In this document: one piece after another, positions 1-41,256 of the stretch
Layout of the letters: every line of letters starts with the position of its first letter
Numbering within the stretch: the first letter of the stretch is position 1
Assembly: GCA_026390585.1 (NCBI GenBank)
Contig: JAPLFP010000354.1
Coordinates: 1 to 41,256 of the forward strand
DNA: 41,256 nucleotides
Reading direction: 5' to 3'
Source of the DNA: Ignavibacteriales bacterium
GTDB taxonomy: Bacteria; Bacteroidota; Ignavibacteria; UBA10030
Position numbers and translations under genes: made by a program
Notes under the pieces: generated by a model
The model's input: the letters and a program-made list of their open reading frames with translations, nothing else
Database searches by the model: none
Told to the model about the DNA's origin: nothing

Positions 1-122
1 ATTAGGAAGGCACAGCACAACTGAAGCAAGAGCATCATTGTTGCTCGTTTCCAGAATCAGAACTCGTGAGCAACAGTTGAAAAAGATTTGTCAATTTCTC
101 TGAGTACGGTTGACACCTAAAA

Positions 123-150
123 TGAAAAATGGCACCATCCCAGTGCCATT
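123..150 (-). terminator. Probable rho-independent terminator, minus strand
   Basis: A perfect 8-bp stem, AATGGCAC (128-135) with GTGCCATT (143-150), closes a 7-nt loop. Read on the minus strand it runs into TTTTTCATTTT, so it would stop transcription coming from the tRNA-Pro-like repeat about 90 bp upstream (239-273, minus sense). The stem is only moderately GC-rich, so its strength is uncertain. Confidence 0.5.
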
Positions 151-230
151 AAACAAATAATTAAAGATGCCTTCCAACAGTACGAATGTCTTTTGTCGAT
201 GGGCGAACTCCGAACGATTCCCCCGGTGAC

Positions 231-273
231 ACCCCAAGCAAGTGCGCTACCGGGCTGCGCTACGTTCCGAGGT
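231..273 (-). repeat. tRNA-Pro 5'-half repeat, copy 1
   Basis: Read on the minus strand, this matches the 5' part of a tRNA-Pro gene. It starts with acceptor strand CGGAACG and continues with TA, D-stem GCGC, D-loop, GCGC and the anticodon arm CTTGC TTGGGGT, which implies anticodon GGG. Identity to a tRNA stops at about position 39. The 3' anticodon strand should be GCAAG but is GTCAC, and no T-arm or matching 3' acceptor strand follows, so this is not a working tRNA. The 35 bp at 239-273 recur exactly at 6445-6479. The reading frame through it is the familiar spurious peptide NVAQPGSALAWG, which comes from tRNA-Pro and not from a protein gene. Confidence 0.75.
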
Positions 274-469
274 GAATCCGGTGTATTCGGGGAATAAAAG
301 CCTTCCAAAAAACCTATAAAACAGATGCTCTAGTAACCATTTGGCCAACCAAGGGTAACCACTTGCCAGTCGGTTGCTGTGTCTGCAAGTCCAATATAAG
401 ACTATGATTCTGGTGAAGCAATTGGGAATTTTCACCATTCCGACTCTGCCACGAGCCCTATAGATTCTC

Positions 470-726
470 TGGCAATGTCAAAGCTCTTCGCCATGTTGCC
501 AATTGACACAATATCTGTCGAAGTGTCGAACTGGCTAAGCATTATTGCCATTGTCACTCTGCCAATTCCTTTAGGGTATGGTTGGTGATGGCAAGGTGTG
601 TTCGGCTTCTTTGCCAGGTTGTCACTTTGCCATTTTCCTGTCTGACTGTCGAAGTGGCAAAGATTCAGTGATACGCACCGACTTCGCCACGCTCCCATAA
701 TGTATAGGTGTTTGGCAATCTGGCAA
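470..726. repeat. Cluster of TTGCCA/TGGCAA motifs
   Basis: Nine exact TTGCCA or TGGCAA hexamers occur in 257 bp. Forward copies start at 496, 545, 611 and 627; reverse copies start at 470, 589, 655, 713 and 721. Longer shared strings include TTGTCACTCTGCCA at 551 and TTGTCACTTTGCCA at 619, and CTGTCGAAGTG at 515 and 646. CTTTGCCA (625-632) and TGGCAAAG (655-662) form an inverted repeat. No convincing gene overlaps the cluster. It could be a decayed minisatellite or an array of protein-binding sites. Confidence 0.55.
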
Positions 727-1289
727 GGCGACGACAAATCCGGATTTCCAGCTCTCTCCGGAAAATGTAAGAAATGCCAAGGAGATGGCATTCAGTTCAA
801 TGAAATGGCGCATTCAAAAAACAATCCAAAAACTTCTTTTATCTCTGGTCCCGCCCCAATCATTTGCTCCCACCAGCCGAAAAAAATAAAAAGCCCAATC
901 TCGAAACGCTCGATTTTTTCCGAACGAAATCGCGCGCGTTTGAAATTTGGCGCGCGGTGCAGGAGGCACACGAACGTATGCTGAAAATGGTGCCGAATCG
1001 CAGGATTGTACCGTGAATACTCAGGTTCCTCATTTTCGGGAAAATAATAATCCGCTCGGGTCTGCCGGTATTGAGTTTGTTCGCTGGCTTTGCTATGTTG
1101 CATCACCCTCTCGCACCGTTTCTTCCACCATCACATGGAGAAGTCATGCGGCAAATCGGCGCGGATGCTAGGTATTGCTGTCAAGAGACGAGTGAGCCCA
1201 AGTGACAATTAAGAACAACTGATGAACCTTCGAAAACACTTTAGAACGGTTCTTTCGAAGGCCGGATTCCGCCCGGAAGAGCTTGCCGT
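727..1289. other. Gene-poor stretch, nothing firm seen
   Basis: No reading frame here combines a start, a ribosome binding site and a recognisable protein. One plus-strand frame (about 800-1014) stays open but has no start codon. The opposing minus-strand frame (792-1106) has an odd composition. I see no RNA gene or strong terminator. Together with the repeats to the left, this looks like decayed or intergenic accessory DNA. Confidence 0.4.
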
Positions 1290-1537
1290 AGGGAAGCATA
1301 GGTTCTTTGTCCCCGTTCAAGGGGGACATGAAATGGCTTTCCTTGCTTGGCTCACCCAAGAAACCAAATCCATCCGAATACTCAAGCGTTATGCTGTATG
1401 CAGATATCCGAAATCTCTTTTTCAAGCTAAACGTGAAATGGATGGACTCGCTGGGGAGGATAGGAGGAGAGCTGGGAGATCCGAGTGCATATTACGATCT
1501 GCGAAGAGTAAAAATTGGGTTTCGTATGGAACTATAG
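1290..1537 (+). pseudogene. Possible C-terminal fragment of an outer-membrane barrel protein
   Basis: An open frame bounded by stops ends in AYYDLRRVKIGFRMEL followed by a stop. This alternating, aromatic-rich pattern ending in a hydrophobic residue is how many outer-membrane barrel proteins of this bacterial group end. There is no good start or ribosome binding site, and the upstream part of any parent gene is missing, so if real it is a remnant. It sits about 90 bp before the lipoprotein gene at 1631. Chance resemblance is quite possible. A different frame (1222-1617) overlaps it and looks less protein-like. Confidence 0.25.
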
Positions 1538-1630
1538 ACGAGGTATCCAACTCGATGTCTCGTGCGATTGGAATTCATGTGTCGGCGACGCCAGACGCAG
1601 GGATGTTTTCCTTTTAGGGGAAGCGTTATA

Positions 1631-2629
1631 ATGAATCGCTCTCATAGGAACGAAGTTCTTGTCATTCTGTCGACATTATCTCTTCTGATTTTTGTCTTTT
1701 CCCCAATTGGCTGCACCAAAAATGGACAATCCCCCGTGGAGGCTCCGGCTGGACTGACGATATCCGCTCCTTCCAACTCAGCTGGTGAGTTTATCGTGAC
1801 CTTGTCATATTCTTGGCCGGAATCAGGCTCAAGTCAGGACGCCTATACACTCGAGGAGTCGACAATATCCTCAACCTCCAGGTTTGTTGAGATCGCTACG
1901 TCACCGGAGGGTGCCTGGCATCAAACGTTTAGTTTCCCGTTGAATAGGCCGACCGGCACATACTACTACAGGGCGCGTGCGTGGGTGAATGCTACTCCTA
2001 CACCCTACAGTTCCGTAGCAACGGTCGTGGTGACTTCGACGGATAACGTGCGCACGTTCTACGCATCCTATACTAACCTCCTGAGGTTCAGTTCCACAGA
2101 CCCAGCGATTGCGAACACGGTCGATACAAGCAGCGATCTCAGCGTGGGGTCGAACTATTATTTTGGAACAAATGGGGGGTATGAGTTCAACCATAGTGCG
2201 TCTCTCTTGAGCTTCGACGTGCAATCGATGATTGCGCTGAAGACAATCCTTGAGGCAAAGCTGATATTATACCCGAGGAGCCTTCCCAAGGACCCTGTGG
2301 GCAAATATAGCGTAGCAGCCACCACACAAGGCTGGGTTCATTCCAGAATAACTTGGACCACATGGTTTAACCTGGGAAGTTACTATGCAAGCATCACAAC
2401 CGAATTGGCCGCACCTTCAACGACTGACGGTCCATTTGAGATTGACGTCACTGCGATTGTGCAAAACTGGGCACGTGGGACTTGGGCTGCCAAGGGGTTC
2501 ATGATGTGGACGCCCGACATGAGATCGCCGGACCCTCCCGTCGAATCACATCGGGCTGCGACTTTCGAAAGTGATGATAACTACACCAACCTATTGCGAC
2601 GACCACAACTCTTCGTGCGGTATAAATAG
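1631..2629 (+). CDS. Secreted lipoprotein with DNRLRE-type domain
   Basis: This 332-residue protein begins at an ATG 7 nt after an AGGGGAAG ribosome binding site. The frame is open further upstream from 1562, but that segment lacks a signal. Residues 1-28 form a lipoprotein signal with a hydrophobic core and Cys in PIGC; the -3 Pro is unusual for a lipobox. Residues about 45-130 look like a fibronectin-like beta domain. The remainder resembles DNRLRE domains of extracellular proteins: a beta-sandwich with 'ASLLSFDV', a 'W..S.ITW.TW' segment, 'EIDVTAIVQNW..G' and a terminal 'RPQLFVRY'. Such domains are carried on cell-surface proteins and their ligands are mostly unknown. It precedes the TonB receptor by 136 bp, so a surface role with that uptake system is inferred. 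Confidence 0.75.
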   Translation: MNRSHRNEVLVILSTLSLLIFVFSPIGCTKNGQSPVEAPAGLTISAPSNSAGEFIVTLSYSWPESGSSQDAYTLEESTISSTSRFVEIATSPEGAWHQTFSFPLNRPTGTYYYRARAWVNATPTPYSSVATVVVTSTDNVRTFYASYTNLLRFSSTDPAIANTVDTSSDLSVGSNYYFGTNGGYEFNHSASLLSFDVQSMIALKTILEAKLILYPRSLPKDPVGKYSVAATTQGWVHSRITWTTWFNLGSYYASITTELAAPSTTDGPFEIDVTAIVQNWARGTWAAKGFMMWTPDMRSPDPPVESHRAATFESDDNYTNLLRRPQLFVRYK

Positions 2630-2765
2630 GAAACGGGAACCGAAGGAGCTGGAGATCTCCCAGCAGTACTTCGGTGATGACTGCAAAATTCCTGGGGCGC
2701 AATTTTACACAAGCTTCAACTGCCGCTGACTCCGTGTTCAAGCGGCTAATCAAGGAGTACAAACG

Positions 2766-4997
2766 ATGAAAGTCGGGGGCACCCTTCTACTAGCTGTTCT
2801 CGCCTTTCCAACCTTTCTCATTGCCCAGGGCGTCGATATCCACGGCACTGTGGCTGACAGCGCCACGGGAGAGAAGCTTCCCTACGCAAACGTGATGTTG
2901 ATCGGCACTACTCGAGGTGCTTCTACGAACGTTCAAGGGTTCTATCTCATCGCCAACGTACCTCCGGGCAGATATGAGATTTCTGCCGGCACCATAGGTC
3001 ATCAATCAAGCATCAAGACGATCGAAGTTCGCACGGGCAGGCCCATCATCGTCGACTTCGAGCTTTCTGCCAAAACCGTCCAAATGTCAGAAGTGGTTGT
3101 GACAGGAGCAGCGAAACCTGAGCTTTCCGAAATTCAAACGAGCATCCACATCATGGAGCAGACTGACATCAAGGCCGTGCCCGCCGCAGCCCAGGGAGAT
3201 TTCTTCAGATCCATTGGAATACTCCCTGGAATCGTGTCAACGAGCGATGTAAGCTCACAGTTCTATGTCCGCGGTGGTTCAGGCGATCAGAATCTAATCC
3301 TGCTCGATGGCATGAAAATCTATAACCCGTATCATGCCTTTGGGCTCTTCAGCATCTTCGATCCCGACGTCATTAAGACAGCTGAGATATACACAGGCGC
3401 ATACCCCGCTGATTACAGCGGCAGGCTCTCGTCGCTTGTTAATATTACAACGCTCGATGGGGGAACAAAGTCGATCTCTGGCCGCGCAAACATCAATTTC
3501 CTCTCAGGCAAGCTCCAACTCGACGGCCCCATTCCCGCTTCCGACGGTTCAGCCATCACATGGTTGGTGAGCGTCCGAAAATCGCTTTTCTCGGAAACTC
3601 TCACAAAGTTTTTGAACAAGGACGCTCCTTTTTCATTCTTTGACGGGTTCGCGAAAGCCACTTACAGGTCGCAAGAAACTGAAGCACAATGGGGATTCCA
3701 GGCTTTTTCGAGCGGCGATGACCTAAAATCAACCAATCCGACTGAGCCGGACTATTCTTGGCGTACGAGCGCCTTCGGATTCACTGGATCCAGTCTCCTT
3801 TCAGATAGAGTATTTTTCACGTCAACGGCATTTATCAGCCTTTACGCAGCTGACAGACGTGTGGAACAGTCGGGTGCTACTTCTTCCGAGTCGACATCTT
3901 TGTCTGAATTCGGTTTGCGAATGAGCACAACGATCTATACTGGCTCGCGTGACTTGTTCTTCGCTGGGGTGGCGCTCAGTTTTCCGATGCTCGATTTCAC
4001 GACAACGAACAACGTCGGCGCCAAAAGCGATGAAACCAGTAATCTTCTGGAAGGGACGACGTGGATCCGATACCAGACTGGCCTGAGCCGGTTGCAAGCT
4101 GATATTGGCCTGTGCCTGGACTTCGGGAGTCTGATGACGCGGAACGCTGGAATCGAAACCCTCCAGCCTCGGGTTGATCTCAGTTATGGTCTTTGGGATA
4201 CGTGGAGGGCGAAGATCGCACTGGGACGGTTCACACAGAACATGATTACCGTAAACAACGAGGATGACGTGATTTCGACTTTCGATGCGTGGGTTAAAGT
4301 GGCGGAGGACCAGAAGTCCGAAATATCAGATCACTTGGTTCTGGGTCTAGAAGGCAATTTCCTTCCGGCTCTTTCGACCAGCTTCCAGACGTATTACAAG
4401 AACTATGGATCCTTAACCCTCTATAATCGAGACAAGATCGACAGGAACGATCCGGATTATGTTATGGGGAGCGGCAAAGCCTACGGTGTTGAGTCACTCG
4501 TCCGCTATAAGAGTGACATCACAGATCTCTATGCGGCATACACACTCTCTTGGACCACTGTGACGTTGAATGACGTCACCTATTCCCCGCGGTACGACCG
4601 GCGGCATACAGTGAACATCAAGGCTCTCCTCCATTTGGCTCCGGCTTTCGATATTACGCTTCGATGGCAGTTAGGCTCGGGTTTTCCTTTTACGGAGACC
4701 GTCGGCTATTATGACCGACTCCAGTTGACAAACCTGTTCCGCGGCTCGTACCTCAATGAAACCGGACAGCCCTTCGCTATGCTGGGCAGGTATGACGCCA
4801 GCCGCCTCCCAACTTTTCACCGTCTTGATGCAAGCGCTGCATATAAATTTGTTCTGAGCTCGATAAGAGGAACAGTCGGTATTAACATTCTCAATTTGTA
4901 TAACCAAAAGAACATTTTTTACTTTGACCGCACTACCGGTAAGCAAGTAACCATGCTGCCGTTTTTCCCGACAGCGACTTTGAATGTCGAGTTCTGA
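2766..4997 (+). CDS. TonB-dependent outer-membrane receptor with carboxypeptidase-regulatory-like domain
   Basis: This 743-residue outer-membrane transporter starts at an ATG preceded by AAGGAG. Residues 1-20 are a signal peptide. Residues about 24-110 are a CarboxypepD_reg-like beta domain (GTVADSATGEKLPYANV). A plug domain follows, with 'SEVVVTGAA', 'FYVRGGSGDQNLILLDGM' and 'YPADYSGRLSSLVNITT'. A beta-barrel then extends to the last residues LNVEF. Receptors of this type take energy from TonB-ExbBD to import a bound ligand. The substrate cannot be read from the sequence. Its length is short for a SusC-type protein, and the partner downstream is DUF4249-like rather than SusD, so a polysaccharide system is not indicated. 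Its stop overlaps the next start (ATGA at 4997), which shows translational coupling. Confidence 0.92.
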   Translation: MKVGGTLLLAVLAFPTFLIAQGVDIHGTVADSATGEKLPYANVMLIGTTRGASTNVQGFYLIANVPPGRYEISAGTIGHQSSIKTIEVRTGRPIIVDFELSAKTVQMSEVVVTGAAKPELSEIQTSIHIMEQTDIKAVPAAAQGDFFRSIGILPGIVSTSDVSSQFYVRGGSGDQNLILLDGMKIYNPYHAFGLFSIFDPDVIKTAEIYTGAYPADYSGRLSSLVNITTLDGGTKSISGRANINFLSGKLQLDGPIPASDGSAITWLVSVRKSLFSETLTKFLNKDAPFSFFDGFAKATYRSQETEAQWGFQAFSSGDDLKSTNPTEPDYSWRTSAFGFTGSSLLSDRVFFTSTAFISLYAADRRVEQSGATSSESTSLSEFGLRMSTTIYTGSRDLFFAGVALSFPMLDFTTTNNVGAKSDETSNLLEGTTWIRYQTGLSRLQADIGLCLDFGSLMTRNAGIETLQPRVDLSYGLWDTWRAKIALGRFTQNMITVNNEDDVISTFDAWVKVAEDQKSEISDHLVLGLEGNFLPALSTSFQTYYKNYGSLTLYNRDKIDRNDPDYVMGSGKAYGVESLVRYKSDITDLYAAYTLSWTTVTLNDVTYSPRYDRRHTVNIKALLHLAPAFDITLRWQLGSGFPFTETVGYYDRLQLTNLFRGSYLNETGQPFAMLGRYDASRLPTFHRLDASAAYKFVLSSIRGTVGINILNLYNQKNIFYFDRTTGKQVTMLPFFPTATLNVEF

Positions 4998-5959
4998 TGA
5001 GAAAGGGCTTATGGATGAGACAACGCCTTTTGCTCCCGGTCGTTCTTTTGATTCTTCTGATCTGGCCAGGCTGCGAGAATAATTTCAGTCCGATCAGTGA
5101 CTACAATAAACAGTTGGTGGTCTATGGAGTGCTTTCGGCTCGCTCCGACAGCCAATATGTAAGGGTTTACACGAACTACAATCCGTCCGGCAATGACCCT
5201 TCCGGGCAAACGACAGACACCGGTGTCCATGGTGCCATAGTGACAATGATGGACGATTTGACAACCTATAGATTTAAAGAGACCGCCATTCCGCGTGACA
5301 CCACGATTCGCTATTCTTCGGACATCGTGGAATATGTCGGTTTTCCATGCCGGCTGCGTCCAGGGAAAATATATTCGTTAGCGATCAACTCCGACCAAGG
5401 AAGAGCGACGGCCCTGGTCTTCGTTCCCTCACACGGTTTTCTTTTCATTAACACACCGATGTCATTGACAGATCCTCGCTCGGCTCTCGATGATATATCC
5501 GTGACAATAGGTATTTCCCCTTGGGCGCGGGGATACCTCGTCCGTTTGTTTATCAATTTTGATGTGATGGTGGGCCAAAATTGGGAGCACAGAAAAGTGG
5601 AGGTCCCATCGTTTGGAGATTCTCTGATGACTCCAGGGGCGTACGGATACTCAACGTTGACGTTTGGACCCTCGGGTTCCACTAGCACTGTCGTTTTCCG
5701 TCGCGAAGCTTATCTGGGCATTCTAAAGCAGCAAATCGAACGTCCTTATGGAGGCTCATTTAGGTTGACAACTGCAACGTTCGTTCTCACACAGGTGGAT
5801 CAAAATCTCTTCAACTATTACAATACCGTGAACGGCTACCAGGATCTGTATACCATAAGGTTGGATCAGCCGGACTTTACAAATATCAATAGGGGAGTTG
5901 GTCTTTTCGGTGCGATGGTCGAGGATTCAACTGAAGTATGGATTCAAGGTCTTTATTAA
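4997..5959 (+). CDS. DUF4249-like lipoprotein, partner of the TonB receptor
   Basis: This 320-residue protein has an N-terminal lipoprotein signal ending in LLIWPGC. An internal ATG at 5015 has a better spaced GAAAGGG in front of it and would give 314 residues with the same signal. After the Cys comes 'NKQLVVYGVLSARSDSQYVRVYTNY', the opening pattern of DUF4249 family proteins, followed by a beta-rich body with no catalytic motif seen. DUF4249 lipoproteins are a known companion of TonB receptors in Bacteroidota, encoded directly downstream as here, with a 1-nt overlap. Their biochemical job is not established; a surface-exposed ligand-binding or lid role is a reasonable inference. Confidence 0.8.
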   Translation: MRKGLWMRQRLLLPVVLLILLIWPGCENNFSPISDYNKQLVVYGVLSARSDSQYVRVYTNYNPSGNDPSGQTTDTGVHGAIVTMMDDLTTYRFKETAIPRDTTIRYSSDIVEYVGFPCRLRPGKIYSLAINSDQGRATALVFVPSHGFLFINTPMSLTDPRSALDDISVTIGISPWARGYLVRLFINFDVMVGQNWEHRKVEVPSFGDSLMTPGAYGYSTLTFGPSGSTSTVVFRREAYLGILKQQIERPYGGSFRLTTATFVLTQVDQNLFNYYNTVNGYQDLYTIRLDQPDFTNINRGVGLFGAMVEDSTEVWIQGLY

Positions 5960-6160
5960 TTGTAGTTGATTCAGGGAGCGATGGTCTCGGCCTCGAAAAG
6001 AAGCGATGACACTCGTATAGCCGTCTTCGTCTTTCCGCCTGCGCTCCCACCTACGCACTTCGTGCTTCGGTGGGCTAGACTCTCCGGCGGGCAAGTCGGA
6101 GGACAAACCGGCGCCGAAGCAACGGGACATCAGTTCGATACTGGCGGCTCGCATGCTAAA
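5960..6160. other. Non-coding, hairpin-bearing spacer
   Basis: No gene is seen. An imperfect hairpin lies at 6046-6074: outer arms CCCACC and GGTGGG, inner arms GCAC and GTGC. Further right is a T-arm-like string CAGTTCGATACTG, but no acceptor strand pairs with the bases after it, so I do not call a tRNA. The stretch separates the uptake operon from the terminator at 6161-6188. Confidence 0.4.
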
Positions 6161-6188
6161 AAAAGCGGCCACAACTTCAGCCGCTTTT
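6161..6188. terminator. Rho-independent terminator, likely bidirectional
   Basis: Stem AAAAGCGGC (6161-6169) pairs with GCCGCTTTT (6180-6188) around a 10-nt loop, with an A-run on the left and a T-run on the right. It can end the plus-strand uptake operon, whose last gene stops at 5959, and the minus-strand transcript of the recombinase stub, which stops at 6209. Confidence 0.8.
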
Positions 6189-6208
6189 TCTGTGATCACT
6201 CACAACAA

Positions 6209-6304
6209 TCATCTAAGTCGTGCCTTTGTGCTGATCTTACGCTTGCGGCCATCCTCATCATCATACCAGAGGTAGTAGATTTCGTTGCGCTTGGATAAAA
6301 ACAT
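6209..6304 (-). pseudogene. N-terminal stub of a tyrosine recombinase (phage integrase-like)
   Basis: Too short for ordinary gene calling, this frame encodes 31 residues starting MFLSKRNEIYYLWYDDEDG and followed by RKRKIST. The pattern of basic residues, 'G/N-x-Y-Y-x-x-Y', an acidic turn and 'GKRKRIST' is how many phage and conjugative-element integrases begin: a short AP2-like strand region before the core-binding domain. It has a start ATG with GGAGG about 7 nt upstream and stops soon after the motif. A terminator (6161-6188) lies about 20 nt downstream on the same strand. The core-binding and catalytic domains are absent, so a deletion removed the rest of the gene. It lies 140 bp from the right tRNA-Pro-half repeat, which suggests a former mobile element. 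A stand-alone micro-peptide is the alternative. Confidence 0.6.
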
Positions 6305-6414
6305 ACCCTGCCTCCATAGAAAATGGATGCAAGGATTACCAATAAGCTAACCATGTGAGAGATGCTGGTGGGTGTTTCTTAGGAAGGAATAATCATCTTT
6401 GAATCCGGAACATC

Positions 6415-6479
6415 ACCCCAAGTCCCGAAGGGATCCCTTTGGGACAAGTGCGCTACCGGGCTGCGCTACGTTCCGAGGT
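6415..6479 (-). repeat. tRNA-Pro 5'-half repeat, copy 2, with palindromic insertion
   Basis: The 35 bp at 6445-6479 equal 239-273. On the minus strand they read as a tRNA-Pro 5' half from the acceptor strand through the 5' anticodon stem. Copy 1 continues directly into the anticodon loop, but here 22 bp (6423-6444) intervene before the matching ACCCCAAG (6415-6422). The insert begins TCCCGAAGGGA and is self-complementary over 11 pairs with a single G-T pair. The right part of a tRNA (T-arm, 3' acceptor) is absent, as in copy 1. No tRNA can be made from this locus. Confidence 0.75.
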
Positions 6480-6648
6480 ATATCTCCCATCCCGCAATTC
6501 ATCCTGGGTCAGAAACAATATACGAAATACATTCTGGGTCCGCAATAAACACATCACGGTTGCCGGAACCATACTTCCGGGGACAAGGTCCTTTTTTGAG
6601 CATTGCATGCCTACGGGAAATAAGCTATGTTACGGGTGATTAAGAACC
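6480..6648. other. Spacer upstream of the GroES-like gene
   Basis: No gene is seen. Two CCTGGGTC/TCTGGGTC strings lie in a short direct repeat (about 6507 and 6534). A promoter for the downstream pair is expected here, but I cannot place convincing -35 and -10 boxes. Confidence 0.3.
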
Positions 6649-7056
6649 GTGGATCAGCTTTCTTCTATGGAAATTACATCCCGAAAGAAAATCATCCTCG
6701 TTGGCGACAAGGTGCTGATTGCACCCGACGCTGAGTCAGAGCGTTCCAATCACGGCCTGTATCTTCCTCCCGGGGTCAAAGAGAAAGAGAAAGTCAACAG
6801 CGGCGTCATCGTGCAGGTCGGACCCGGCTATGCAGTCCCCAATCCGCATTTTCTCGATCAGGAACAATGGTCGACTTCCCAGAAGGATCCTATCAAATAT
6901 ATGCCCCTGCAGGCTGAAGAGGGCGACTACGCTCTGTTTCTGCGCGATTCCGGCATCGAGATCGAGTACGATGAGCACAAATATCTCATCGTCCCACACT
7001 CGGCAATCCTGATGCTCATCCGAAGAAGCGAGTTCGGTCAAGGACTGGAACAATAG
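6649..7056 (+). CDS. GroES-like (Cpn10 family) protein
   Basis: This protein has 135 residues from GTG, or 129 from an in-frame ATG at 6667; neither start has a strong ribosome binding site. It shows the Cpn10 pattern: 'VLIAPDAESERSNHGLYLPPGVKEK' in the N-terminal strand and mobile-loop region, 'SGVIVQVGPG', then 'EEGDYALFLRDSGIEIEYDEHKYLIVPHSAIL' matching the closing 'G D x V L F x x Y x G x E I ... Y L I V x x x D I L'. It is longer than ordinary GroES (about 95-100 residues) because of an insert of roughly 30 residues after the GPG turn. No groEL is next to it, so it is probably a paralogue with its own role rather than the main co-chaperonin. The next small gene follows after 8 bp. Confidence 0.8.
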   Translation: MDQLSSMEITSRKKIILVGDKVLIAPDAESERSNHGLYLPPGVKEKEKVNSGVIVQVGPGYAVPNPHFLDQEQWSTSQKDPIKYMPLQAEEGDYALFLRDSGIEIEYDEHKYLIVPHSAILMLIRRSEFGQGLEQ

Positions 7057-23154: not shown

Positions 23155-24099
23155 ATGAAAAAGGGACGCATCATCTCTGTGCTGGTAAAAGAGAAGGAGG
23201 ATCTCAAACTCGACAGTGAGATCCGTCAGTACTTCAATTTCCTTCGTCTTGAAAAAGGCTCTTCTCAGCATACACTCCACTCCTATCAGTTTGACCTCGC
23301 AAAGTACCGAGCCTTTCTTGTTGATCAGAACATCGTCACGGTAAGCAGAGTCAAAGAGGAGCACCTCAGCGAATTCCTGAAGGAGCTTGCGCGGAAACGT
23401 CTCTCGCCGCGAAGTGTGGCGCGGATTCTCTCGGCCGTTCGTGGACTCCACCGCTTCATGGTGGGGGAGGGGTTGCACGATGATGATCCGACAGAGAATA
23501 TAGACACTCCGAAACGTTCGAAAACTCTCCCTGGTGTGCTTTCCGTGGCAGAAATTGATGCTATTTTGAAGCAGCCGGATGTCCGGAAACCACTGGGCGT
23601 GCGCGACAGAGCCATGCTGGAAGTTCTCTACGCGACCGGAGTGCGGGTGTCGGAGCTTACGAATCTCAAGCAGTCGAACCTGATGTTCGATTCGGACCTG
23701 ATTCTGGTCTTTGGCAAGGGTTCAAAGGAGCGCCTTGTGCCGATTGGACCATCAGCAGTCGATTGGGTCACAACCTATCAGCGGGATGTGCGGATTCACC
23801 TTGTAAAAGCAGGTCGTTCGAAGGATGTGTTGTTTCTGAACTTTCGAGGGGGAAAGCTGTCTCGCGCGGCAATACGGGATTTGGTTGTGAAATACGCCCG
23901 CGCAGCCGGTATCAGAAAGGAAATTCATCCGCACACATTTCGCCACTCATTTGCCACTCATCTTCTGGAAGGTGGAGCCGATCTTCGTGCAGTGCAGGAG
24001 ATGCTTGGTCACGTCGATATTTCCACGACACAAATCTACACACACATCGACCGCGAATACCTCAAAGAAGTTCACCGAACGTTCCATCCTCGCGCCTGA
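23155..24099 (+). CDS. xerD: Site-specific tyrosine recombinase XerD
   Basis: The product has 314 residues. The core-binding domain starts at 'IRQYFNFLRLEKGSSQHTLHSY', followed by the catalytic domain with Arg164 ('GVRVSELTNL'), Lys in 'GKGSKERLVPIG', 'HPHTFRHSFATHL' (His260, Arg263), His286 in 'LGHVDISTTQIYTH' and nucleophile Tyr295. This is the full catalytic set of Xer recombinases that resolve chromosome dimers at dif. The N-terminal extension of about 20 residues is slightly long. XerC and XerD are hard to separate by sequence alone; 'HVDISTTQIYTHI' and the position outside any element favour XerD. The REP/RAYT locus begins directly after its stop. Confidence 0.88.
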   Translation: MKKGRIISVLVKEKEDLKLDSEIRQYFNFLRLEKGSSQHTLHSYQFDLAKYRAFLVDQNIVTVSRVKEEHLSEFLKELARKRLSPRSVARILSAVRGLHRFMVGEGLHDDDPTENIDTPKRSKTLPGVLSVAEIDAILKQPDVRKPLGVRDRAMLEVLYATGVRVSELTNLKQSNLMFDSDLILVFGKGSKERLVPIGPSAVDWVTTYQRDVRIHLVKAGRSKDVLFLNFRGGKLSRAAIRDLVVKYARAAGIRKEIHPHTFRHSFATHLLEGGADLRAVQEMLGHVDISTTQIYTHIDREYLKEVHRTFHPRA

Positions 24100-24118
24100 C
24101 ATCCTTCGGCGACCAGAT

Positions 24119-24255
24119 CGTGAAACGGGTCGCAGGCCCGTCTACCTTGACGGTACTGGCGTCCCGTCCGACAAGGCAAATCTCATTCGTGAAACGGTCG
24201 CAGACCCGTCTACCTTGACGGTACTGGCGTCCTGTCCGACGAGACAAGTCTAAGA
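24119..24255 (+). repeat. REP-type tandem repeat upstream of the RAYT gene
   Basis: Two units of about 68-69 bp lie at 24119-24187 and 24188-24255, each starting CGTGAAACGG. They share 'TCGCAGRCCCGTCTACCTTG' followed by an imperfect hairpin: GACGGTAC, TGGC loop, GTCCCGTC (24149-24168) in unit 1 and GACGGTAC, TGGC, GTCCTGTC (24217-24236) in unit 2. The units match the repeats downstream of the transposase gene. Confidence 0.85.
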
Positions 24256-24272
24256 CTTCGACCGGGTTGCCG

Positions 24273-24290
24273 ACTCGACCAAATTCGAGT
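24273..24290 (+). promoter_or_regulatory. Hairpin just before the RAYT start
   Basis: ACTCGA (24273-24278) pairs with TCGAGT (24285-24290) around a 6-nt loop, 7 nt before the GTG start of the RAYT gene. It could limit translation of the transposase. It is short and unproven. Confidence 0.3.
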
Positions 24291-24297
24291 AACAGCC

Positions 24298-24933
24298 GTG
24301 GAAACCTTCTATCGCCGACATTTGCCCCACTATCAGCCACCAGGAGCCACGTACTTCGTCACATTCCGGCTTGCAGGCTCGCTGCCCGTGAAACTCAGTA
24401 AGGAGCGGTCTCTTTTTGGAAATCGAAATCATGATCAAGATCACTTCTGGCGTCTCGACTCAATTCTGAGCTCTTCAAATTTTGGTCCTCGGTGGTTGCA
24501 GAATGCCGACGTTGCAGAAATTGTTCAGGAGGCAATCATGTTTCGGGATGGCATCAAATACGACTTGTATGCATCGTGCATCATGCCGACCCATGTCCAC
24601 ATGGTATTTCAGTTGCTCGACGGAAGTGCGAGCGAGATTTCACAACCTGGTCGGAATAATAATGCTGAGCAGAACCGAAAGCTTGTACGGTATCCGGTGA
24701 CGGAAATCCTTGGATCGCTGAAAAAACATACTGCCCTTGAAGCGAACAAGGTTCTGGGTCGGAGAGGGGCTTTCTGGAAAGACGAAAGCTACGATCACTT
24801 TGTCCGCGATGGCGCCGAACTGGAGAGGATTTTGTGGTACGTGTTGTTCAATCCTCAAAAATCCGGACTTGTAAAATCATGGAAGGACTGGAAGTGGACG
24901 TACTGCAAGCCACGGTTGTTGGCGTTGGAGTAG
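24298..24933 (+). mobile_element. REP-associated tyrosine transposase (RAYT, Y1_Tnp/IS200-like)
   Basis: The product has 211 residues from GTG. It carries the Y1 transposase signatures: 'ATYFVTFRLAG' (strand 1), the HUH pair His99 and His101 in 'IMPTHVHMVF', 'LGSLKKHTALEANKVLG' and 'GAFWKDESYDHFVRD'. RAYTs are single-copy proteins that bind and move REP hairpins found nearby; they are not classical insertion sequences, and the terminal inverted repeats of IS elements are not seen. Hairpin repeats flank the gene on both sides. All the key residues I can check are intact, so the gene may be active. Confidence 0.88.
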
Positions 24934-27865: not shown

Positions 27866-28858
27866 ATGAAACGCTACAATGTTGCAGTGGTCGGAGCAAC
27901 TGGACTCGTCGGACGGACCATGATTCGGGTGCTGGAAGAAAGAAACTTTCCGGTGGATCAGTTGTTGCCGCTGGCTTCAGAGCGGTCTGTGGGAAAAGAT
28001 GTTGTGTTCCACGGAAAGATCATTCCTGTCCAGAAGCTTGAACCTGACAAATTCAATAACATCCAGTTTGCTCTGTTTTCCGCTGGAGCGAGTGTGAGCA
28101 AAGAGTTTGCGCCTCATGCGGTGAAAGCCGGGACGGTCGTCATCGACAACAGCAGCGCATTTCGCATGGATGCCGACGTTCCGCTTGTTGTTCCTGAGGT
28201 CAATCGCGCTCAAGCCTTCGCTCATCATGGTATCATTGCCAATCCCAACTGCTCCACCATTCAAATGGTTGTCGTGCTCAAACCGCTCCATGATCGATTC
28301 AGGATCAAACGAGTAGTGGTATCGACCTACCAGTCGGTGACCGGGGCGGGTCAGCGGGCGGTCAATCAATTAGAGGATGAACTTGCCAAACTACCGCTCA
28401 GGGAAAAGAAATTCCCACACCCGATCGCGTTCAACTGCCTTCCTCACATCGATGTGTTCTTCGACGACGGTTATACAAAGGAAGAACTCAAGATGAAACA
28501 AGAGACGGTGAAGATTATGGGCGAGAAGATCGCTGTCACCGCCACGACTGTGCGCGTGCCTGTGATGGGCGGACACAGTGAGTCAGTGAACATCGAGTTC
28601 GAAAAGCCTTGCAGTGTCAACGAAGTACGCGAAGTCCTGAAGTCTGCCCCCGGGGTTGTCGTTCAGGACGATCCCGCCAACAACGTGTATCCTATGCCGA
28701 TTCATGCACATGGCAAAGATGATGTTTTTGTCGGGCGGATTCGTATGGACGAGACGATACCTTACGGAATCAACCTGTGGATTGTTTCCGACAATATCCG
28801 TAAGGGAGCAGCGACAAATGCGGTTCAGATTGCGGAAGCGTTGATTGCGAATTCTTGA
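27866..28858 (+). CDS. asd: Aspartate-semialdehyde dehydrogenase
   Basis: This 330-residue NADP-dependent enzyme reduces aspartyl phosphate to aspartate semialdehyde, shared by lysine, threonine and methionine synthesis. 'NVAVVGATGLVGRTMIRVLEER' is the nucleotide-binding loop, Cys in 'NPNCSTIQM' is the catalytic residue, 'QSVTGAGQRAV' is the substrate loop and 'RVPVMGGHSESVNIEF' carries the catalytic His. Full length. It directly follows lysA, matching their joint pathway. Confidence 0.96.
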   Translation: MKRYNVAVVGATGLVGRTMIRVLEERNFPVDQLLPLASERSVGKDVVFHGKIIPVQKLEPDKFNNIQFALFSAGASVSKEFAPHAVKAGTVVIDNSSAFRMDADVPLVVPEVNRAQAFAHHGIIANPNCSTIQMVVVLKPLHDRFRIKRVVVSTYQSVTGAGQRAVNQLEDELAKLPLREKKFPHPIAFNCLPHIDVFFDDGYTKEELKMKQETVKIMGEKIAVTATTVRVPVMGGHSESVNIEFEKPCSVNEVREVLKSAPGVVVQDDPANNVYPMPIHAHGKDDVFVGRIRMDETIPYGINLWIVSDNIRKGAATNAVQIAEALIANS

Positions 28859-39368: not shown

Positions 39369-41256
39369 CTACAGCGAGGATTTGAAGCGGCGCAGTCTCA
39401 AAGAATTTGAAACGACACTGACAGAGCTCATCGCCATCGCACCTGCAGCGACCATGGGACTTAGAAGTCCAAGTGCTGCCATCGGTATGCCGATCACGTT
39501 GTAAATGAAGGCCCAAAACAGATTCTGTTTGATCGTAAGGACGGTTCGTCCGGACAACCTGATCGCTTCGACGACGCCAGAGAGATCACTATGCATCAAA
39601 GTAATATCTGCAGTTTCCATGGCTACGTCCGTTCCTGAGGCCATAGCGATACTGACATCGGCTTGCGCGAGAGCCGGTGCGTCGTTGACGCCATCACCGA
39701 CCATGGCAACGCGTTCGCCGTTTGCCTGAAGAGTCTTGATCTGTTGTGCCTTCTCCTGAGGCAGGACTCCGGATATGAAGGAATCAACTCCCATGTTCAT
39801 AGCAATGGATCCAGCGGTTCGGGAATTGTCCCCTGTGATCATGACGATCCGCAGGCCCATCTTCTTGAGTTGACGAATTGCCTCCCGCGATCCGGGCTTC
39901 ACCGTGTCAGCAATTCCCATGACTCCCGCCAGCGTGCGATTGATGGCAACAAAAACTGGAGTCTTTCCCTGACCGGACAAATCCTGGATGGTGTGCTCAA
40001 CAGCTGCGAAGTCCACGCCTGCGCGCCTCATCATGGCCTCGTTGCCGACGCTCACTTGATCCCCTTGCACGATACCCTGTAATCCGATGCCGGGAAATGA
40101 GTCAAACGATGTGACGGAGCCAGGTTCGATCCGCAGACTTCTGGCGTACTCTACGACGGCGCTGCCCAGCGGATGCTCCGACTTGTTCTCCAGTGAAGAT
40201 GCTCGGTGCAAGAGAACCTGCCGGTCGAATCCGCTCGACGGAATGCAATCGGTCACCGATGGTTTCCCCTCTGTGATCGTGCCTGTTTTGTCGAGAATGA
40301 CTGTTTGGATATTTTTTGCCCTCTCGAGACTCTCGGCATTCTTAATAAGGATGCCTTTTGAAGCGCCAACCCCGGTGCCGACCATGATCGCGGTAGGGGT
40401 TGCAAGTCCCAGTGCACAAGGGCAGGCAATGATCATGACGGAAATGAAATTCATCATAGACAACGTGAATGGAAGGTGGCCGATAGTATACCATGCCAGG
40501 AAGGTGACGACAGCGATGCCGATGACGATAGGGACGAAAACGCCTGCGATCCGATCCGCCAGCGCCTGAATCGGCGCTTTCGAACCCTGCGCCTCTTCGA
40601 CCATTCTCACAATGTGGGCGATCACCGTGTCCTTCCCGACGGCCGTCGCTCTGAATTCAATGCTCCCATTCTTGTTCAGCGTTCCGCCGATAACTTTCTC
40701 GCCGGCATTCTTGTCGACCGGCAGGCTTTCCCCCGTTACGAGCGATTCATCAACCGAAGTGTACCCGCTGGTGATAATCCCGTCAACCGGTATCTTCTCT
40801 CCGGGTCGAACGATAATTGTGTCATGGATAAGGAGTTCAGACACAGGGATATCAGATTCCCCTCCAGTTCTCCGGACCCTCGCTGTTTTCGCCTGCAAAT
40901 CCAACAACTTTGTAATCAAGTCGGTTGTGCGCTTTTTCGCCCGCGCTTCCAACAGTCTGCCCATGAGGATGAGAGTGGTAATCGTGGCTGCCGTGTCAAA
41001 ATAGATGCTGTTCGCTGCTGCCGCGCTGGGGAGCCACTGTGGGAACAAGACGACAATCGAGCTGAAGCCGTACGCCGTCCCCGTTCCGATGGCGACGAGC
41101 GTATTCATGTCGGCTGAGAAATGTCTCGCCATCTTCAAGGCTGATGAGAAGAACCGCCTTCCCGGAAGTACGATGATCGCTGTAGTCGCAAGGAACAGAA
41201 GTTTGTTCACTTCATCCATCGAGAGGGGAGATGAACGCATGAACCAATCGGTCATG
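39369..41256 (-). CDS. copA: Copper-translocating P-type ATPase, N-terminus beyond the window
   Basis: The visible 628 residues run from 'NMDTL'-like transmembrane helix 4 onward to the end; the metal-binding HMA domain and first helices lie past the right edge. Seen in order are the dephosphorylation motif '[10 protein letters not shown]', the ion motif 'IACPCALGL', phosphorylation site '[11 protein letters not shown]', '[10 protein letters not shown]' (nucleotide-binding HP) and hinge '[20 protein letters not shown]'. The last helix '[21 protein letters not shown]' has the MSS pattern of Cu(I) pumps. It exports Cu(I) or Ag(I) across the inner membrane. It lies 106 bp upstream of glgP on the same strand. 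Confidence 0.93.

Follow-up and report, generated by a model that had tools for sequence, protein, structure and literature searches.

The two direct repeats near the start of the window, which is the entire 41,256-nt contig C55 within the 4.7-Mb, 379-contig assembly under study (G000), are very probably att-site scars of tyrosine-recombinase islands that stacked in one tRNA-Pro(GGG) gene. The block between them (274-6444) is, with the same high confidence, a single decayed island. Such an origin would account for the position of an uptake gene set between two tRNA halves. It would also provide an example of the rare 5' polarity, which leaves the host relying on an element-supplied half of its tRNA gene.

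Repeats and gene content of the block

The repeats at 239-273 and 6445-6479 are exactly identical, have the same orientation and lie 6.2 kb apart. Their assignment to the 5' half of tRNA-Pro in the original prediction was correct, as the 35-mer is the reverse complement of nt 1-31 of tRNA-Pro(GGG) plus 4 nt upstream. The predicted length of 35 bp holds for the exact match but understates both copies: copy 1 is longer, reaching tRNA nt 40, past the anticodon, and copy 2 also extends to nt 40, interrupted by a 22-bp palindrome. The recombinase stub noted beside the right copy is present, and profile matches agree with the three gene assignments made between the repeats. The features of positions 1-7056 are as follows, where island A denotes the putative island.

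230-278, minus strand: copy 1, displaced tRNA-Pro(GGG) 5' half, nt 1-40 (230-269) plus 9 nt of flank; 98% identity over 49 bp to the 5' half of the intact gene on contig C299; predicted att site that closes island A on its distal side
270-422: distal end of island A; 231-422 aligns with contig C10 of G002 (L072 18743-18935), 75.6% over 201 bp, E 6e-31
274-6413: island A body, bounded by att copies homologous to both ends of island A in G002
1222-1614, plus strand: ORF of 131 aa, no family match in profile searches
1631-2626, plus strand: DNRLRE-domain protein, probable lipoprotein (NF033679, E 2.3e-13)
2766-4994, plus strand: TonB-dependent receptor with a carboxypeptidase-regulatory-like domain (PF13715, PF07715)
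4997-5956, plus strand: DUF4249 protein (PF14054, E 2.4e-12)
6209-6304, minus strand: N-terminal stub (31 codons) of the island A tyrosine recombinase, remainder of the gene lost; peptide MFLSKRNEIYYLWYDDEDGRKRKISTKARLR*
6414-6479, minus strand: copy 2, displaced native tRNA-Pro 5' half, with nt 1-31 at 6445-6475 and nt 32-40 at 6414-6422
6423-6444: 22-bp double-hairpin palindrome between tRNA nt 31 and 32, sequence TCCCGAAGGGATCCCTTTGGGA, single copy in the genome
6476-6666, minus strand: native upstream region and promoter of the tRNA-Pro gene, remaining beside GroES; homologous to the region upstream of the intact tRNA in G004 (z 20.7) and of fragment A in G002 (z 18.0)
6667-7056, plus strand: GroES-like (Cpn10) gene (PF00166), which adjoins tRNA-Pro on chromosomes of the family

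The GC content of the island A body (274-6413) is 49.7%, compared to 53.0% for positions 6480-41256. A defence-profile search with two of the cargo proteins of the window gave no match. Elsewhere in the window, an Xer-like tyrosine recombinase ORF of 314 aa is found at 23155-24099, with 30% identity to the C299 integrase over its C-terminal part.

Copy number and the intact tRNA-Pro gene

A 25-bp core of the repeats, searched for with up to 3 mismatches, occurs three times in the 4.7-Mb genome, twice in the window and once on contig C299. The same pattern read backwards gave 0 matches in this genome, so the three copies are not due to chance. The third copy belongs to the intact tRNA-Pro(GGG) gene (C299:12014-12088), the cognate of the nt 1-40 fragments.

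These counts bear on a suggestion in the original prediction, namely that the repeats belong to a dispersed tRNA-derived element, in which case the intervening genes would have no connection with them. The small palindrome of copy 2 does occur elsewhere in relatives, and tRNA-Pro fragments are seen around tRNA-Pro in several genera; however, one of the only three copies genome-wide is the gene itself, and both fragments have flanks, of island-end or native tRNA type, that are homologous to G002. We therefore regard a dispersed element as highly improbable. Its sole echo is the 22-bp insert of copy 2, which recurs in GIY-YIG-linked tRNA-Pro fragments of other genera.

On C299, a tyrosine recombinase ORF (PF00589) starts 120 bp from the 5' end of the intact tRNA-Pro and points away from it, an arrangement that differs from that in G002. 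The intact tRNA and the fragments sit on separate contigs in this genome, and C299 would join C55 across the contig gap.

An intact array in a sister species

In G002, a sister species of the same genus, the entire array is found on one contig, C10. It runs from GroES (24091-24477) through a fragment with tRNA nt 1-40 (27884-27923; fragment A) and integrase A, then a fragment with tRNA nt 1-39 (58896-58934; fragment B) and integrase B, to the intact tRNA-Pro (97830-97904). Integrase A lies ~110 bp beyond the nt 1-40 fragment, and the second integrase follows the nt 1-39 fragment. Both fragments are on the 5' side of the intact tRNA and have the same orientation. Judged from this gene order, the layout is the one expected of 5'-type islands whose entry at the anticodon would leave the 5' half stranded, the gene then being rebuilt from the other island end.

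Both ends of the block in our window align with this array. Positions 6228-6546, which comprise the stub, copy 2 and the tRNA promoter, match the start of integrase A, its att site and the tRNA promoter in G002 with 73% identity over 320 bp (E 6e-50), while 231-422, comprising the far block end and copy 1, aligns with fragment B at 76% (E 6e-31). Past nt 40 of copy 2 the sequence continues as ATGTTCCGGATTC and then the integrase N-terminus, as it does in fragment A, which has no hairpin. This homology at both ends assigns the 6.2-kb block to one island family with G002 island A; of the integrase in the block, a 31-codon stub is left. The tyrosine recombinase is intact in the homologous G002 island, and because only the stub remains in the window, we call the block a decayed island and not a mobile member of the family.

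No cargo gene between the ends is common to the window block and G002 island A. In the cargo of the C299 element and of G002 island A, we see two defence-like matches (PDC-S69; REase_II/HATPase), and the rest is without assignment or consists of generic repeats.

Sites without the island

Among relatives of the same genus and family, tRNA-Pro(GGG) adjoins a GroES-like gene. G004 presents an empty 5' side: its intact tRNA has its 5' end facing GroES at a distance of 203 bp, with the same native promoter, as in the window minus the island DNA. In G003 the first 23 bases are identical between the contig bearing the tRNA and the one bearing GroES, which indicates that the two genes are neighbours there too, and they lie on the same strand. 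Searches of G003, G004 and G005 gave one tRNA-Pro match each, with no fragment and no equivalent of 274-6444, in a comparison of draft assemblies from sister species rather than strains. Together with the G002 site, where islands are bounded by the same tRNA halves, these alleles agree with the earlier suggestion of a small genomic island. The strand of tRNA-Pro relative to GroES varies among relatives, even within one genus (G011 and G024; L012-L025), which indicates that the locus has also been rearranged.

As separate observations, an integrase start is also present 3' of the intact tRNA-Pro in G002 (L074, from about 17990 onward) and G004 (L077, 4665-4886). From their position, 3'-type islands seem to use the same tRNA-Pro gene.

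Upstream flanks and the proposed route of integration

To compare promoters, the 90 bp upstream of each tRNA copy were aligned for eight tRNA flanks and scored as z values. A native class, with the region TTGC ... GTATATTG, comprises copy 2, G002 fragment A, and the intact genes of G000, G003 and G004. An island-end class comprises copy 1 and G002 fragment B; among the eight flanks, copy 1 resembles fragment B only (z 4.9). The flank of the intact G002 gene falls in neither class. These classes suggest that the native promoter stays with the displaced half by the integrase start, and that the rebuilt gene uses one supplied by the island.

The same comparison bears on the possibility that the block arose by ordinary homologous recombination duplicating the 5' region of the tRNA, with no site-specific recombinase. 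Rearrangement of the locus among relatives, seen in the strand of tRNA-Pro, would be in keeping with such an event. However, the upstream flanks of copy 1 and copy 2 are unrelated (z -0.6), an integrase stub stands at the expected place, and G002 shows the same layout twice, which together leave this explanation with very little probability.

We instead favour stacked islands, which could have produced the window as follows. Each island would cross over at the anticodon stem-loop of tRNA-Pro(GGG). Its integrase end would join the native 5' half and native promoter, giving what is now copy 2 beside GroES, and the promoter of the displaced half would read towards the integrase gene. The other island end would supply a replacement 5' half (nt 1-40), rebuilding the gene with the native 3' half. 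Entry of the next island into the rebuilt gene would then strand its predecessor's replacement half, seen as copy 1. The 6.2-kb block would thereby be a single island that lacks a working integrase and carries the DNRLRE protein, TonB receptor and DUF4249 protein as cargo, and at least one further island would lie between copy 1 and the intact tRNA on C299. The intact tRNA of G000 has a native-like promoter, which calls either for a comparable promoter having come in with the second island (island B) or for a more complicated history; we infer the former. This promoter, the variable strand of tRNA-Pro relative to GroES, the separate contigs and the orientation of the C299 integrase are the points that speak against stacked islands.

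The hairpin insert of copy 2

We searched 32 genomes of the family for tRNA-Pro 5' halves interrupted before nt 32. In addition to copy 2, five were found, in G007 (C28:16952-16995), G008 (C7:49290-49333 and 49653-49696) and G010 (C39:40021-40064 and 40420-40463), so that four genera are represented including that of the window. All inserts are exactly 22 bp long, consist of two 11-nt hairpins and lie at tRNA-Pro nt 31/32. The first stem varies in a paired fashion (TCCC/GGGA, TCAC/GTGA, TTCC/GGAA, TGCC/GGCA). The interrupted copies outside G000 adjoin small ORFs of the GIY-YIG family (PF01541). The palindrome was also considered as an abundant repeat and rejected, since this genome has a single copy and each relative has copies at a few loci, mostly outside tRNAs.

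Copy 2 might accordingly be attributed to a GIY-YIG micro-element instead of an integrase island, the element having inserted at nt 31/32 and been lost, leaving the 22-bp double hairpin as its scar. The inserts of exactly this length at the same tRNA position beside GIY-YIG ORFs in G007, G008 and G010 speak for such a scar, as does the frequency, within the order, of GIY-YIG ORFs with tRNA fragments on their flanks. It is nevertheless unlikely, because what follows nt 40 in copy 2 (ATGTTCCG.ATTC, then the start of the integrase) is shared with the hairpin-free fragment A of G002, a GIY-YIG ORF sought in G000 at E 1e-8 gave no match, hence none between fragment and intact tRNA, and a hairpin could also have come into the displaced half on its own at a later time. 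Judging by its flank, copy 2 is a scar of an integrase island; its hairpin probably arrived afterwards, once the half had lost its use, at a position with repeated insertions.

Polarity of related islands

The original prediction described direct repeats of a 5' half as unexpected, and integration of the 5' type is indeed a known minority: of 3,919 islands in the Islander survey, 3,760 have a 3' tDNA fragment and 159 a 5' fragment (PMC4383910). A review states that bacterial tRNA genes keep their own promoter with very few exceptions, and gives pTN3 as an archaeal 5'-half case (PMC8371274). On both accounts, the island in our window is another case of a known but rare kind, the 5'-fragment tRNA island.

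It shares with the Islander 5'-fragment islands a probable anticodon-centred crossover, a terminal 5' fragment, a tyrosine recombinase, and a tandem arrangement with a separate fragment for each member (PMC4383910). It differs from them in that island A is without its integrase and the displaced half carries a 22-bp insertion. The pTN3-type archaeal integrases (Cossu et al. 2017, via PMC8371274) likewise have the tRNA 5' half as attB, with the rebuilt tRNA using an element-borne promoter. In our case, by contrast, the host is a bacterium, and integration leaves the integrase gene, which adjoins the displaced half, unsplit.

For related integrases of the order, a tRNA sequence is present within 400 bp upstream in 26 of 30 cases, and in 12 of these it is only a 5' half, of various isotypes. 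Going by these upstream sequences, the 5' type is not rare in this order. A single integrase clade with 5' polarity was considered and rejected, as the states are mixed on the integrase tree (8 changes; 282 of 500 shuffles were as low). Polarity changes repeatedly within one integrase family, with at least four changes forced by well-supported branches and not clustered, and it therefore looks like a property of the att site of the element rather than of the enzyme.

GIY-YIG ORFs between tRNA genes and their fragments

Because the interrupted tRNA-Pro copies adjoin GIY-YIG ORFs, such ORFs were tested at large. Within the order, a tRNA gene was present in the fetched stretch at 27 of the 30 best GIY-YIG loci and 16 of 20 weaker ones; the tRNAs are mostly no more than 300 bp away, are all on the strand of the ORF, and represent many isotypes. 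A scan of named genomes gave a tRNA within 300 bp at 64 of 80 loci, all on the ORF's strand, spread over about 14 phyla as assigned from record titles. At the usual tRNA density, a tRNA within this distance is expected at an estimated 1 in about 100 loci.

An exact stretch of at least 14 nt of the same tRNA was found on the far side of the ORF at 80 of the 104 loci with enough sequence (controls: 0/104 on the other strand, 8/520 with other isotypes), in pooled sets (L113-L142, L173-L192, L193-L272) with a few genomes in more than one set and loci that are not fully independent. Polarity is strictly kept: where the tRNA precedes the ORF, the fragment behind the ORF is of the 3' type (46 vs 2), and where the tRNA follows the ORF, the fragment in front is of the 5' type (30 vs 2). 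By their sequence layout, these loci point to a class of tiny predicted nuclease genes, lying between a tRNA gene and its broken copy, that is widespread and apparently undescribed. We found no account in the open literature of small GIY-YIG ORFs between an intact tRNA and a displaced cognate fragment, which does not in itself prove novelty. Free-standing GIY-YIG homing endonucleases near tRNAs, such as phage SegB, also link a nuclease gene to tRNA genes (PMC13096335); at the cellular loci described here, in contrast, the small ORF has an intact tRNA on one side and a displaced piece of that tRNA on the other.

We tentatively suggest, at somewhat less than an even chance, that tRNA-Pro(GGG) of this lineage is a landing site for two unrelated kinds of half-stranding element, the integrase islands and tiny GIY-YIG elements. 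The latter would be widespread, undescribed micro-elements, each bringing a tRNA half with which the gene it has split is made whole again, and the copy 2 hairpin could be a footprint of the same process. If GIY-YIG ORFs from about 14 phyla do break and rebuild tRNA genes, many annotated tRNA fragments and stray GIY-YIG proteins would have one cause, and intron-free homing into tRNA genes would become testable.

The putative GIY-YIG elements measure about 0.3-0.4 kb in the tRNA-Pro cases read. In G008 and G007 (L025, L081), the GIY-YIG reading frame continues into the tRNA-Pro behind it, where the TAG of the D-loop serves as its stop. A GIY-YIG ORF and an integrase are found no more than 600 bp apart at tRNA-Asp in G008 (C14; L170) and at tRNA-Ser in G040 (C122; L166), as if both kinds of element stack at one tRNA.
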